34,299 nt of DNA from a virus, in the IMG/VR virus record IMGVR_UViG_3300030329_002018, positions 1 through 34,299 of that record. One strand, written 5' to 3'. Below, piece by piece: positions 12,512-16,173 of this stretch. The position numbers and the translations under genes are program-made. Positions within the stretch are counted from its first letter, which is position 1. The number at the start of each line of letters is the position of its first letter. The notes under the pieces are model-generated. The model saw only the letters and a program-made list of their open reading frames with translations. It had not been told where the DNA came from and did no database searches.

Positions 12512-12718
12512 ATGGTTACGTTTTCAACATGGGTCGCAAAAAGCGGTCACTCACATGAACAAGTAGCACGCAGATTGGGATGTTCGCGTGCTTATATCAG
12601 CCAGCTACTAAGCCATAAAAAAACGCCCAGCCTGGAAATGCTGAGGCGGATGCTGTTGCTGGGTAACGGGGATTTGAGGGCGGAGGATTTGATTGTCGAG
12701 TTCACAGTCGGAACATGA
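12512..12718 (+). CDS. Cro-like helix-turn-helix protein
   Basis: The ATG at 12512 is preferred over the in-frame TTG at 12503 because it sits at the predicted transcription start and still leaves a complete domain. The 68-aa product is essentially one HTH: TWVAKSGHSHEQVARRLGCSRAYISQLLSHKKTPSLEMLRRMLLL, with helix 2 SHEQVARRLG and recognition helix SRAYISQLLS. The small size and its place as first rightward gene of the divergent region are those of lambda-type Cro. The next gene begins inside its 3' end. Confidence 0.75.
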   Translation: MVTFSTWVAKSGHSHEQVARRLGCSRAYISQLLSHKKTPSLEMLRRMLLLGNGDLRAEDLIVEFTVGT

Positions 12719-13073
12719 GGTGCACGCATCAATAGTCCAGTGGCTTGAGTTTGCATTGCCACCAGGTTCGATTTTTCATCATTCCCCAAATGAGGGAAGA
12801 CACCATGTTCGTTATCGTATGAAGCTCAAAAAGATGGGCCTATGTGCTGGTTGGCCTGATCTCGAATTGCTCGTGCCCATTGACTACTGGTTCAACCCCG
12901 CTTGGGGACCACTGTACATGGAAGTTAAAAACGAGAAGGGCAAGCTTACCAAAAACCAGAAGCAGGTGCTGGAGCTGTTGGACAAAGCAGGCGGGCACGT
13001 TTCCGTCGTGCGCTCTATAGATGACGCATCAAATTTTCTGAGCCAATTTGTGGAGCTTAAAGCGTATGCCTAG
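12693..13073 (+). CDS. VRR-NUC domain endonuclease
   Basis: This is a small nuclease of the VRR-NUC group of the PD-(D/E)XK superfamily, known for structure-specific cutting of branched DNA. Visible motifs are GRHHVRYRMKLKKMGL (35-50), GWPDL (53-57, D56) and YMEVKNEKGKLTKNQKQVLELL (E77, K79). The 126-aa length is typical of stand-alone phage versions, which probably resolve recombination or replication intermediates. The start is TTG 12693, supported by GGAGG at 12682-12686. A GTG at 12720 is possible but has no comparable site. Confidence 0.85.
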   Translation: MSSSQSEHEVHASIVQWLEFALPPGSIFHHSPNEGRHHVRYRMKLKKMGLCAGWPDLELLVPIDYWFNPAWGPLYMEVKNEKGKLTKNQKQVLELLDKAGGHVSVVRSIDDASNFLSQFVELKAYA

Positions 13074-13299
13074 AGCCAGAACAATACCAGCTCCCAAAAA
13101 CAAGAACCCTTTAATTGCGGAACTGGTGCGGATTATGAACGACCAAGGCGTGGAAAGCATAGCGCTGTGTGATGCCGCTGGCATTGCCCCGTGCTCAATT
13201 AGTTCATGGCGTCTCAGGCATAACCCCACAATACATAATTTTGAAGCAGCATTGAACGTGCTTGGTTACGAGCTGTCGATACGGAAGCGTAATGGATGA
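13066..13299 (+). CDS. Helix-turn-helix protein, CII/Cro-like
   Basis: The start is taken as ATG 13066, overlapping the VRR-NUC stop. The 77-aa product contains ELVRIMNDQGVESIALCDAAGIAPCSISSWRLRHNPTIHNFEAALNVLGYEL, a phage HTH pattern in which the second helix (IALCDAAG) and recognition helix (PCSISSWRL) are followed by NFEAALNVLGY. It is probably a transcription activator or repressor of the early region. Confidence 0.7.
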   Translation: MPRARTIPAPKNKNPLIAELVRIMNDQGVESIALCDAAGIAPCSISSWRLRHNPTIHNFEAALNVLGYELSIRKRNG

Positions 13300-13429
13300 G
13301 TGCCCGTTTTGCCATAACGAGAGGTTTACCCTGGTTCCTAATGGGGTGGACGCCTGCTGGATGTGCACACAAAAAGCCGAGCTGGAATACGATGAATTAC
13401 AAAAAACAAAAGAGGAAAAGGGGGGGTGA
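13292..13429 (+). CDS. Small zinc-ribbon protein
   Basis: A 45-aa frame begins at ATG 13292, overlapping the end of the HTH gene, and ends at TGA 13427-13429, overlapping the methyltransferase GTG. It has two CxxC knuckles, CPFC (residues 4-7) and CWMC (22-25), spaced as in a zinc ribbon, then a charged helix. It is likely a zinc-binding accessory protein; the partner is unknown. The 3' end supplies the purine-rich ribosome site of the methyltransferase. Confidence 0.6.
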   Translation: MDECPFCHNERFTLVPNGVDACWMCTQKAELEYDELQKTKEEKGG

Positions 13430-14484
13430 GTGACCGAAAAATTAACCACCTCGACTTATGCAGCGGAATCGGAGGATTCGCCCTCGCCCTCGCAGACGCT
13501 GGACGCAGAACAGATAGAAATGTTTCCACAATCGCCTTCTGTGAGCCAGAGCAGTTCTGCCAGCAAGTCCTCAGAAAGCACTGGCCCGAAGTCCCCATCT
13601 ACGACGACGTCAAAACCTTCCCAAAAGACTTCGGCAAAGTCGATATCCTCACCGCGGGATACCCGTGCCAACCCTTTTCCCAAGCTGGGAAGCGCAAAGG
13701 CACGGCAGATGAGCGTCACATCTGGCCGTGGGTGCTTGAAATTACTAAGCAAACAAGACCCCATGTTGCCGTTTTTGAAAATGTTGTTGGTCACATCTCA
13801 ATGGGAATCGACGAGGTGTTACTTAATCTGGAAAATGAAGGTTACCATGCGTGGCCGATCATACTTGGAGCTGTCAGTAAAAACGCCCCCCACAGAAGAC
13901 AGCGGGTCTGGATCATCGCCTTCGACCTGGGCAACACCCAACACGATGGATCATCTTCCAGCGAGGTCAGCGGAGGATTGCTCGATCAATCAGAAGAACA
14001 GAAAGGGAAGGAAGAGATCGGGGAATCTACGAGAGCAAGTGGTGCATCCCGAAATGTGGCCGACACCGAGAGCAAGTTCAGCAATGACGGATTCGGGAAA
14101 GTCAGTAGAGAAAAGGCTGGGGAAAGTAGGATACGAGGCGAAACTGGAACAGGCCGTGCAAATGTGGCCGACACCCAGAGCGTCAGAATACAAGGACACG
14201 GGGCCAGTGGGGAGCAAGAGCCATACGCACATGAAAAAGAAGAATTATCTGTGTGCGGAAGTGAAGGATCAGGACAAACCCAAAGGTCAGCTCAACAGCG
14301 AATTTGTAGAACTTTTGATGGGCTATCCACTTGGGTGGACGGAGATTGGGAACGGGGAGTCCCAAGAGTGATTGAGGGGCAGAAAGACAGGGCGAAAAGG
14401 TTGAAAGCCCTCGGAAATTCGATATGCCCCCAGGTCGCATCGGAATTATTCACGGCCATACTGAAAGAGGGGGGCATCGATTGA
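13426..14484 (+). CDS. dcm: C5 cytosine DNA methyltransferase (Dcm-like)
   Basis: The enzyme transfers a methyl group from S-adenosylmethionine to cytosine C5 in DNA, probably protecting phage DNA from host restriction. Conserved motifs are: I, DLCSGIGGF (residues 10-18); IV, GYPCQPFS with catalytic C81; VI, ENV (118-120); VIII, RRQRVWII (157-164); and X, GNSICPQVA (330-338). Residues 167-290, where the target-recognition domain should lie, are polar G/S/E-rich low complexity with two NVADT repeats (210-214, 246-250). The same DNA is open in the +1 frame for 313 codons (next entry). The start is GTG 13426 behind a purine-rich site. The stop overlaps the next methyltransferase (TGATG). Confidence 0.9.
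   Translation: MSDRKINHLDLCSGIGGFALALADAGRRTDRNVSTIAFCEPEQFCQQVLRKHWPEVPIYDDVKTFPKDFGKVDILTAGYPCQPFSQAGKRKGTADERHIWPWVLEITKQTRPHVAVFENVVGHISMGIDEVLLNLENEGYHAWPIILGAVSKNAPHRRQRVWIIAFDLGNTQHDGSSSSEVSGGLLDQSEEQKGKEEIGESTRASGASRNVADTESKFSNDGFGKVSREKAGESRIRGETGTGRANVADTQSVRIQGHGASGEQEPYAHEKEELSVCGSEGSGQTQRSAQQRICRTFDGLSTWVDGDWERGVPRVIEGQKDRAKRLKALGNSICPQVASELFTAILKEGGID
13430..14371 (+). CDS. Overlapping +1-frame ORF inside dcm, WPTP-repeat family (translation unproven)
   Basis: A 313-codon frame opens at GTG 13430, four bases after the dcm GTG and behind the same ribosome site, and lies wholly inside dcm. Its first 90 residues are S/T/P-rich. After that it carries recognisable blocks: CYLIWKMKVTMRGRSYLEL, PPTEDSGSGSSPSTWATPNTMDHLPARS (155-180), WPTPRAS twice (210-216, 246-252), GPVGSKSHTHMKKKNYLCAEV and GQLNSEFVELLMGYPLGWT (286-304). 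I recognise these from phage proteins found at dcm loci. NVADTES in dcm and MWPTPRAS here come from the same bases, one frame apart. It may be a translated overlapping gene, a frameshift extension of the methyltransferase, or a fossil frame. Function is unknown. Confidence 0.5.
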   Translation: MTEKLTTSTYAAESEDSPSPSQTLDAEQIEMFPQSPSVSQSSSASKSSESTGPKSPSTTTSKPSQKTSAKSISSPRDTRANPFPKLGSAKARQMSVTSGRGCLKLLSKQDPMLPFLKMLLVTSQWESTRCYLIWKMKVTMRGRSYLELSVKTPPTEDSGSGSSPSTWATPNTMDHLPARSAEDCSINQKNRKGRKRSGNLREQVVHPEMWPTPRASSAMTDSGKSVEKRLGKVGYEAKLEQAVQMWPTPRASEYKDTGPVGSKSHTHMKKKNYLCAEVKDQDKPKGQLNSEFVELLMGYPLGWTEIGNGESQE

Positions 14485-15032
14485 TGGGAAAAAGAAGTGA
14501 TTTTGAGAGGCGTCCGTTGGACAAATATCCAACACCCGAAGCAGCGGTTTTACCACTGCTGGAACACCTGGACCCAGCTACCAGCTTTGAGGAACCCTGT
14601 GCTGGCAAGGGGGATCTCATACGCCACCTGGAAAAATTCGGTCACAGATGTATCAGCGCCACGGACATAGGCAACCCGTCTGTCCCAGTAGACGCCAGAA
14701 GTATTGAAACGTGCTCCGCAGAATATTTTATTACCAACCCGCCCTGGCAGCGGGACATCATGCACGACATTATCGAGAACCTGTCGAAGATCAGGCCGTG
14801 CTGGTTTCTTATCGATGCTGACTGGATGCACACCAAGCAGGCGATCCCCTACATGGAATACTGTCGCAAAATTGTTTCTGTTGGCAGGGTCAAGTGGATA
14901 CCGGAAAGCAAGCAAACGGGAAAAGATAACGTAGCCTGGTATCTATTTAATTCAAAGAAAAGGCGATGGCCGTTTCACCGCCTGGACGGGACAACAACAT
15001 TTCATGCGAGGGTAGCTGATGATCCCAGGTAA
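14484..15032 (+). CDS. N6-adenine-type DNA methyltransferase (NPPW)
   Basis: The start is ATG 14484, overlapping the dcm stop; the frame extends upstream inside dcm without a better start. The 182-aa product has an N-terminal DKYPTPEAAVLPLLEHL, the SAM-binding motif EEPCAGKGDLIRHLE (36-50), the acidic ATDI and the catalytic NPPW (85-88), typical of adenine-N6 or cytosine-N4 amino-methyltransferases. It lacks an obvious recognition domain, so specificity is unknown. It is paired with a cytosine methyltransferase, probably for restriction avoidance or DNA packaging marks. Confidence 0.8.
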   Translation: MGKRSDFERRPLDKYPTPEAAVLPLLEHLDPATSFEEPCAGKGDLIRHLEKFGHRCISATDIGNPSVPVDARSIETCSAEYFITNPPWQRDIMHDIIENLSKIRPCWFLIDADWMHTKQAIPYMEYCRKIVSVGRVKWIPESKQTGKDNVAWYLFNSKKRRWPFHRLDGTTTFHARVADDPR

Positions 15033-15210
15033 CTGCAACTGTCCTGCGTGCGGGTCTCCAGATACGGAAGCGATGTTAACTATAGGTAACGTCAAGACAC
15101 TTGAATGTCTTACCTGTAATCACATTTGGACAGCATCAGCTGGTAACGGCGAGTTACGTTTTACAGATCCTTACATTCAATGGGGTGCCACGGGGGAAGA
15201 AGAGTTTTGA
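15019..15210 (+). CDS. Zinc-ribbon protein
   Basis: This 63-aa protein has CPAC (residues 8-11) and CLTC (30-33), spaced as in a zinc ribbon, between short beta-strands (MLTIGNVKTLE). It overlaps the methyltransferase by 14 bases (ATG 15019). One of the operator palindromes lies inside its 3' half. It is probably a small zinc-binding adaptor; no partner is evident. Confidence 0.6.
   Translation: MIPGNCNCPACGSPDTEAMLTIGNVKTLECLTCNHIWTASAGNGELRFTDPYIQWGATGEEEF
15143..15157. promoter_or_regulatory. Operator-like palindrome, site F (intragenic)
   Basis: GTAACG-GCG-AGTTAC matches the consensus at 11 of 12 positions. It lies within a coding region, so the match may be incidental. It could also act as a roadblock inside the early operon. 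Confidence 0.35.
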
Positions 15211-15374
15211 GTCAAGAAGAGAAAATCAAACTGTTGCTCAAAACCATTGAGAAGTGCCGCTGGTGCGGGGTTGTTGTTGATCCCGAAGCGGCCTGGGCGA
15301 CTTATCTGGATGGCGAGGTTAGGTGCGATATATGCGGGAAGGAAGTAACAGAGATGGAAGAGTATGATGCTTAA
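15207..15374 (+). CDS. Small zinc-ribbon protein with TTG start
   Basis: The likely start is TTG 15207, overlapping the previous stop (TTGA), with GGGGGAAGAAGAG upstream; the frame also has an ATG at 15180. The 55-aa product has CRWC and CDIC knuckles flanking a WATYLDGEVR segment, a zinc-ribbon layout. It is the third such small protein in this cluster. The stop overlaps the start of the PP-loop enzyme. Confidence 0.55.
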   Translation: MSQEEKIKLLLKTIEKCRWCGVVVDPEAAWATYLDGEVRCDICGKEVTEMEEYDA

Positions 15375-16173
15375 CGTAATCTCCCTTGGCGCTGGTGTGC
15401 AAAGTTCGGTCATGGCTTTAATGGCTGAACATGGGGAGTTACCTCGCCCAGACTGCGCTATTTTTGCGGATACCCAATGGGAGCCAGAAGGTGTCTACGA
15501 ACATTTGGATTGGTTAGAAAGTGTTATTAAAAACTTTCAAATTTACAGAGTTACTGTCGGGAATATACGAGAGGACGTTATCAATAATAGACCATTAAGA
15601 GGGCGCAACAATCCCAATGCGTTTAGTGCCGTGCCTTTTTTTACAGATGGCAAAGGGTTTGGCCGTAGACAATGCACCAATGACTATAAAATTAGGCCAG
15701 TACGAAAAAAAATTAGGGAACTGTTGGGCGTAGGATACGGGAAGCGAGTGCCGAAAGGGGTTACTGTAAAACAATGGTTGGGAATAAGCACTGACGAGGC
15801 TAGTCGCATGAAGCCAGCGCAAGAATCCTGGCTGATAAATACATGGCCGTTAATAGACGCAAATATGTCTCGTCAAAACTGTATTGAGTGGTTTGCCAAG
15901 CGTTACCCAGACAGGGTTTTAGCCAAGTCAGCGTGTATTGGCTGTCCATTACACAATGACAAAGAATGGCGCGATATAAAACTGAACGATCCTAAGAGCT
16001 GGGAGGATGCTGTTGCTGTAGACAAAATAATACGCAATGGAGGGCGTAGTGGTTCTAAGCAGTATATGCACAGTTCTTTGAAGCCTTTATCTAAAGTTGA
16101 TTTCCGAAATTTAGAAGACAAGGGCCAGCTAAATATGTTTGAAGACGAGTGCGAAGGGATGTGCGGGGTATGA
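15364..16173 (+). CDS. PP-loop / PAPS reductase-like enzyme (adenine nucleotide alpha-hydrolase superfamily)
   Basis: This 269-aa protein has an N-terminal PP-loop, SLGAGVQSS (7-15), then CAIFADTQWEP, GRRQCTNDYKIRPVRKKIREL (100-120), WLGISTDEASRM and SACIGCPLHNDKEW (189-202). Cysteines C104, C191 and C194 could hold a metal or Fe-S cluster or act in sulfur transfer. These motifs match phage and bacterial proteins annotated as phosphoadenosine phosphosulfate reductase-like, related to DndC-type ATPases. A role in nucleotide or DNA modification fits the two neighbouring methyltransferases, but the reaction is unknown. Confidence 0.8.
   Translation: MMLNVISLGAGVQSSVMALMAEHGELPRPDCAIFADTQWEPEGVYEHLDWLESVIKNFQIYRVTVGNIREDVINNRPLRGRNNPNAFSAVPFFTDGKGFGRRQCTNDYKIRPVRKKIRELLGVGYGKRVPKGVTVKQWLGISTDEASRMKPAQESWLINTWPLIDANMSRQNCIEWFAKRYPDRVLAKSACIGCPLHNDKEWRDIKLNDPKSWEDAVAVDKIIRNGGRSGSKQYMHSSLKPLSKVDFRNLEDKGQLNMFEDECEGMCGV

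Follow-up and report, generated by a model that had tools for sequence, protein, structure and literature searches.

The window analyzed here is the whole of IMG/VR record IMGVR_UViG_3300030329_002018, an uncultivated virus record of 34,299 bases with temperate tailed phage genes (integrase, Sak annealing protein, Sf6-like small terminase, head-tail connector and major head protein). At 13426..14484 on the forward strand, which carries all of the alpha and beta features described below for the window, lies a gene for the predicted catalytic subunit of a DNA cytosine-C5 methyltransferase (GTG to stop, 352 amino acids (aa); PF00145, E = 2.8e-39), here called alpha. Nested inside it at 13430..14371 is a second open reading frame (ORF) in the +1 frame, beta (GTG to stop, 313 aa), a putative second subunit. 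A first-pass annotation of the DNA had given exactly these coordinates for a dcm frame and an overlapping ORF. Beta matches phrog_1008 (E = 1.5e-24), a family annotated as 'DNA methyltransferase', and gives no match to Pfam or NCBIfam models. It is built of an N-terminal domain, an array of WPTP blocks and a segment identified below as motif IX.

Alpha

By motifs and fold, alpha is a PF00145-type C5 methyltransferase. The five motifs that the first-pass annotation had listed are confirmed in the alpha alignment: motif I (DLCSGIGGF, 13453..13479), motif IV (GYPCQPFSQAG with the catalytic cysteine C81, 13657..13689), motif VI (ENV, 13777..13785), motif VIII (HRRQRVWII, 13891..13917) and motif X (LKALGNSICPQVASE, 14404..14448). 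Motifs IV and VI are invariant. In the AlphaFold model residues 1-170 mostly have a predicted local distance difference test score (pLDDT) above 85, with dips near residues 81-90 and 121-130, and the fold matches M.HaeIII and M.HhaI. The motif X helix is also fairly well modelled (helices at 322-330 and 335-347). A profile of alpha aligns with solved C5 methyltransferases over motifs I-VIII, and motif X is aligned only below threshold, in M.HhaI.

Motif IX is absent before motif X in the alpha chain by alignment, profile and model, and no recognition domain is modelled in the alpha of the window. Residues 172-315 (13939..14370), which lie between motifs VIII and X, score below 50 pLDDT and are predicted to form a disordered tether, encoded by DNA that substitutes in beta's phase. 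In three other loci alpha, but not beta, is broken by a single stop codon in the stretch from motif VIII to motif X (TAG near 3153 in L083; TAA near 545 in L170 and near 643 in L275, both on the reverse strand), which might mean that the tether is dispensable or that motif X is made separately.

Selection in both frames

The first-pass annotation put the chance of such an open frame at about 3 in 10 million, a figure that ignored the constraint from alpha; the view that the +1 frame is not open by chance is nevertheless upheld by synonymous shuffles in which alpha's protein and codon usage are fixed. The frame was left open in 0 of 20,000 shuffles, which had a mean of 7.3 stops. Scored with a beta profile built without the window sequence, the real beta reaches 414.7 bits compared with 104 +/- 18 for shuffled versions, and exceeds every shuffle. 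The part over motifs IV-VIII scores 139 bits (62 +/- 9 when shuffled) and the remainder 233 bits (27 +/- 13 when shuffled). The shadow that alpha casts on beta similarity is real but too small to explain beta.

The phase of substitution was compared in 26 independent pairs, as differences at alpha codon positions 1/2/3. Alpha-only DNA gives.17/.09/.39 before the overlap and.16/.11/.44 after it. Over motifs IV-VIII the values are.15/.09/.22, so that synonymous change is halved, and in the linker they are.34/.14/.11. The free position in the linker is alpha's first, which is beta's third, and beta's frame is therefore the constrained one there. A frame-blind nucleotide alignment agrees (.14/.07/.38 before,.13/.08/.42 after,.15/.09/.21 over motifs IV-VIII and.29/.10/.07 in the linker). 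This check of constraint in both frames, proposed when the overlap was first noted, thus finds a phase that flips from alpha's in alpha-only DNA to beta's in the linker, and it is confirmed that both frames are genes, intact and under selection. When the shuffle test is applied to the longest +1 run it is not significant for L391 and L372, where the beta overlap is partial or the reading is GC-rich.

Beta and motif IX

Beta residues 84-155 (13679..13894) form a predicted helix-helix-hairpin domain over alpha motifs IV-VIII, modelled at a pLDDT of about 72-88 by block. Residues 167-285 (13928..14284) hold the array of WATP/WPTP blocks, defined from the beta alignment, with tryptophan codons at 13928, 14057 and 14165. 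Residues 286-304 (14285..14341) are the putative motif IX, GQLNSEFVELLMGYPLGWT, which rearranged relatives carry immediately ahead of motif X. The first-pass annotation had described the repeated WPTPRAS blocks and the GQLNSEFVELLMGYPLGWT end correctly, but had missed that the C-terminal block corresponds to motif IX. Searches of solved structures with the beta sequence gave no match, and searches of BFVD gave only weak matches, some of them named methyltransferase.

The C-terminal block of beta, LNSEFVELLMGYPLGWT, adjoins motif X in a single frame in five relatives. In L211, L287 and Gordonia phage MelBins (L372) that frame is alpha's, and in Arthrobacter phage Chickaboom gp42 (L370) and L133 it is beta's. 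A profile of the bridged IX-X segment finds the plant DRM C5 methyltransferases (4onj, E = 5e-4; DRM2, E = 0.007), and the match covers LEPDEVEMLLGFPKNHTRGGGISRTDRYKSLGN, the IX-X region of DRM enzymes. Because the end block precedes motif X in the rearranged relatives and the IX-X profile matches DRM enzymes, we conclude from these sequence comparisons that beta supplies motif IX. In L211 (reverse strand), L372 and L287, where motifs IX and X are both in alpha's frame, the beta N-terminal domain and the WPTP blocks are still encoded in the +1 frame, so that either frame can hold motif IX.

C5 methyltransferases carry their recognition domain between motifs VIII and IX. The WPTP array, which numbers 0-6 blocks per homologue and overlies alpha's linker, occupies this usual site and is for that reason the candidate target-recognition region. 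L164 and L241, and in part L191, have an inserted helix-turn-helix-like segment (PEQQEFVDYMREQT...EHWFRR) in the array or next to it.

Occurrence of the nested pair

Scanning viral contigs with beta yielded 80 retained loci; in every one of them beta lies inside alpha in +1 phase, and the aligned betas are 39-78% identical to that of the window. Among 80 loci from a scan of bacterial genomes (Bacteroidota, Bacillota, Pseudomonadota, Acidobacteria, Chloroflexi, Spirochaetes and others), 78 are nested, and the other two are overlapping with motif X in beta's frame. When the motif IX peptide was searched for as a DNA pattern, 120 loci were returned. Ninety-eight are nested in +1, 15 have the catalytic part cut off by a contig end (14 of these 15 show same-phase alpha fragments), in five alpha is interrupted or the locus is otherwise irregular, and two have motif IX in alpha's frame. 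An alpha-based search was added to remove the bias of finding loci through beta. Each of the 81 complete alphas that it found, a set that covers the nearest relatives, the remaining loci being contig-end-cut or distant forms, has a single open homologous +1 beta ORF. An intact dcm with a broken +1 frame, which the first-pass annotation had named as the contrary case, was sought in the alpha-found loci and occurs in none of the 81.

Overall there are 339 nested pairs, 225 of them non-redundant, from many phyla. This dual coding persists in hundreds of phages and prophages. One locus (L222:133-1952) has two overlapping alpha/beta pairs in tandem. Farther out, Bacillus phage SPbetaL7 and Cronobacter phage GAP161 have canonical single-chain enzymes without a nested gene, and their +1 runs are 37 and 52 codons (P ~0.9). 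The first-pass annotation had linked the WPTP blocks to free-standing phage proteins. However, neither beta searches, which covered viral contigs, bacterial genomes, phages and plasmids, nor the motif IX DNA pattern found a free-standing WPTP protein, and every beta-type sequence with a catalytic part on its contig overlaps that part in +1. Both nested genes are annotated in Paenibacillus phage Bloom and S. thermophilus phage P0091; other records annotate alpha only.

A probable two-subunit methyltransferase

The two fully overlapping genes of this locus very likely specify the two subunits of one DNA cytosine-C5 methyltransferase, a heterodimer of the M.EcoHK31I kind. Alpha would be the catalytic subunit, binding S-adenosylmethionine and carrying motifs I, IV, VI, VIII and X, with the stretch between VIII and X as a disordered tether. 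Beta would be translated independently from the GTG 4 nucleotides (nt) after that of alpha and would provide motif IX and, most likely through the WPTP array, target recognition. Like the subunits of M.EcoHK31I, the two would come together to form a single active enzyme. The production of both proteins in the cell, their assembly and activity, and DNA reading by the WPTP array are all inferred from sequence. The first-pass annotation had suggested that the recognition function is encoded in the other frame, as a separate subunit or through a frameshift; a separate conserved subunit with a putative motif IX is what we find, target recognition by it is probable, and the frameshift route is not supported.

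Several points weigh against this interpretation. The published account of M.EcoHK31I puts the predicted target-recognition domain in alpha (PMC3404938), and the likeness to that enzyme is judged by the published description of its motif division. The model of beta is poor (mean pLDDT 57), and its fold has no match among solved structures. Motif IX is identified through a profile of five sequences, whose E-values are modest. The C-terminal IX-X pieces give no significant Pfam match, which leaves the DRM match of the bridged profile to carry the identification.

One alternative is that alpha is complete alone and that beta is an overprinted protein with another job, such as a regulator, an anti-restriction protein or a clamp-directed factor. 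A +1 ORF is also nested in genes for single-chain C5 methyltransferases of Firmicutes phages that do possess motif IX, as this explanation would expect, and L211, L287 and L372 have motif IX in alpha's frame yet keep the beta N-terminal domain. However, the alpha of the window is without motif IX or a modelled recognition domain, beta carries the putative motif IX, and in L370, L133, L159 and L391 motif X is in beta's frame too. We consider a self-sufficient alpha very unlikely.

A programmed +1 frameshift after motif VIII, fusing the catalytic part of alpha to the recognition region and motif IX of beta in a protein of canonical order, is slightly less probable still. In its favor, beta is always in the +1 frame relative to alpha, and a fusion protein would have I-VIII, recognition and IX back in their usual order. 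However, motif X lies in alpha's frame in nearly all loci, so that the fusion would lack it, and beta is conserved upstream of any shift site (the 139 bits over motifs IV-VIII compared with 62 in shuffles), which is needless for a fusion. Beta also has start signals of its own. In the window the two starts form a tandem GTG-A-GTG (13426..13432), 4 nt apart, and an NTGNNTG arrangement is found in 7 of 8 clade members, with ATGAATG, GTGAATG, GTGATTG and GTGCTTG among relatives; L001 is without a tandem start. In other clades the beta ATG lies inside alpha and is preceded by AAGGAG or a similar Shine-Dalgarno sequence embedded in alpha's codons. Such an embedded Shine-Dalgarno plus ATG occurs in 95 of 216 loci, compared with a mean of 20.4 and a maximum of 34 in synonymous shuffles. 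Because of these signals, beta is predicted to be made from its own start, and frameshifting is unnecessary.

Chance, or a shadow of alpha's conserved residues or codon usage, has a negligible probability as the source of the open +1 frame: although shuffles still score about 62 bits over motifs IV-VIII, it is refuted by the closed frames and lower scores of all shuffles and by the substitution phase of the linker, and the two canonical methyltransferases without a nested gene (L398, L400) are also without a long +1 run.

If alpha and beta do form one enzyme, cloned alpha alone should be inactive. Beta is commonly unannotated, and many 'dcm' genes in phage records would then be half-annotated enzymes. 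Should DNA be read by the WPTP array, the varying number of blocks would provide a handle on specificity.

A clamp-binding-like peptide

Near its N-terminus, at residues 28-32 (13511..13525), beta has the clamp-binding-like peptide QIEMF, which is found in 7 loci of the clade of the window. Elsewhere QLTLF, QKDLF or QMELF is found near the beta N-terminus. The pattern Q..[LM]F occurs in 108 of the 225 non-redundant betas compared with a mean of 6.8 and a maximum of 14 in synonymous alpha shuffles, and QL.[LM]F in 74 of the 225 compared with 1.9 in shuffles; the betas are related, so this excess is no formal probability. A codon-identity table of the QL.LF group carries no weight here, the group having been picked by the motif itself. 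The peptide occurs in 11 registers relative to alpha, over different alpha residues. Bacterial clamp-binding proteins share QL(S/D)LF, of which QIEMF is a loose match (PMC9690074 for the consensus).

These occurrences suggest a role for the QxxLF peptide, and we propose that it may tether beta, and hence the enzyme, to the sliding clamp for replication-coupled methylation. Selection would then re-create the peptide at different places in alpha's frame. In this view, which we advance tentatively, beta would be both DNA reader and clamp tether: QxxLF would dock the enzyme on the clamp of the host or the phage, and phage DNA would be methylated during replication. A C5 methyltransferase with a short clamp-binding peptide is known in DNMT1, which has a PCNA-binding motif (PMC9690074). 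However, DNMT1 is a eukaryotic single-chain enzyme and serves as an analogy only, and the bacterial-type QxxLF motif of this locus is a putative binder. If the proposal is true, the overlapping genes would encode a replication-coupled C5 methyltransferase that is the prokaryotic equivalent of DNMT1-PCNA, and binding of QxxLF to the clamp would connect phage replication with methylation in a simple, testable way.

Age and origin of the overlap

Eight single-chain-type C5 methyltransferases (L395, L397, L401-L406) also have a +1 ORF, of 141-200 codons, over the catalytic core. They come from phages of Lactococcus, Streptococcus, Faecalimonas, Agathobacter and Methanobacterium, mostly Firmicutes. 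The ORFs often have AAGGAG before the ATG, sometimes contain QLSLF or QMTLF, and end in SLSDILEENVDEKYFLS. They are usually unannotated, an example of annotation being the nested gp40 of S. thermophilus phage P0091. One of these ORFs is matched by 208 phage records, and shuffles give P <=0.001 in the eight tested. A related-looking +1 ORF over single-chain enzymes suggests that the overlap is old.

The catalytic core is common to all C5 methyltransferases, whereas the beta N-terminal domain is seen only over that core. For this reason the domain probably arose by overprinting the older core. The first-pass annotation had offered overprinting of dcm as an origin for the WPTP family, and our comparison favors it for the part of beta over motifs IV-VIII.

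It is rare for a long same-strand overlap to have both of its proteins conserved, and the case for one is usually made from one or two genomes. Here the overlap is found at more than 300 loci from many phyla, and the switch of the constrained frame along the gene is a clean signature of selection.

Genomic neighborhood

Within the interval 12693-16173, the upstream neighbor encodes a VRR-NUC nuclease. Downstream, the ORF at 14424-15032 has an NPPW motif and is possibly an adenine methyltransferase, and the ORF at 15364-16173 appears PAPS-reductase-like by eye; neither has a Pfam match.

Comparison with known systems

M.EcoHK31I is a heterodimeric C5 methyltransferase from E. coli that recognizes YGGCCR. 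Lee et al. in 1995 reportedly placed its small ORF within the large one, in another frame. Its beta is shorter, at about 176 aa, whereas that of the window is 313 aa and starts 4 nt after alpha. The large polypeptide of M.EcoHK31I has motifs I-VIII and X and the small one has motif IX, a division of motifs identical to that in the window (PMC3404938), where the large gene likewise encodes I-VIII and X and the small gene, nested in another frame, the putative IX. Target recognition differs, being predicted in alpha for M.EcoHK31I, while in the window the corresponding part of alpha is predicted to be disordered and beta holds the candidate region. This precedent was missed by the first-pass annotation. 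A literature search found nothing direct on nested phage methyltransferases or clamp-binding methyltransferases. The locus would thus be another case of the known M.EcoHK31I layout, and its breadth, phase-switching selection and clamp-like peptide were not found described.

M.AquI (CYCGRG) also divides one C5 methyltransferase into two subunits, with the recognition region and motif IX outside the catalytic subunit. It has motifs IX and X together in the small subunit. The window keeps motif X in alpha and so differs from the AquI type, but L133, L370 and L391 do have both motifs in the small subunit. In L370 (Chickaboom gp41/gp42) and L391 (Peaches gp77/gp76) the split is AquI-like: alpha ends after motif VIII, and the WPTP blocks and motifs IX and X belong to a +1 ORF that opens within alpha, far upstream of where its start is annotated.

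The Paenibacillus larvae phages have pairs (BLOOM_56/BLOOM_57 in Bloom) annotated as overlapping 'DNA cytosine methyltransferase' genes, with nesting and phase as in the window. Compared with the window, beta is 75% covered at ~35% identity and alpha 97% covered at ~34% identity. However, beta in the P. larvae phages starts ~200 nt inside alpha, and it is annotated in some records and omitted in others.
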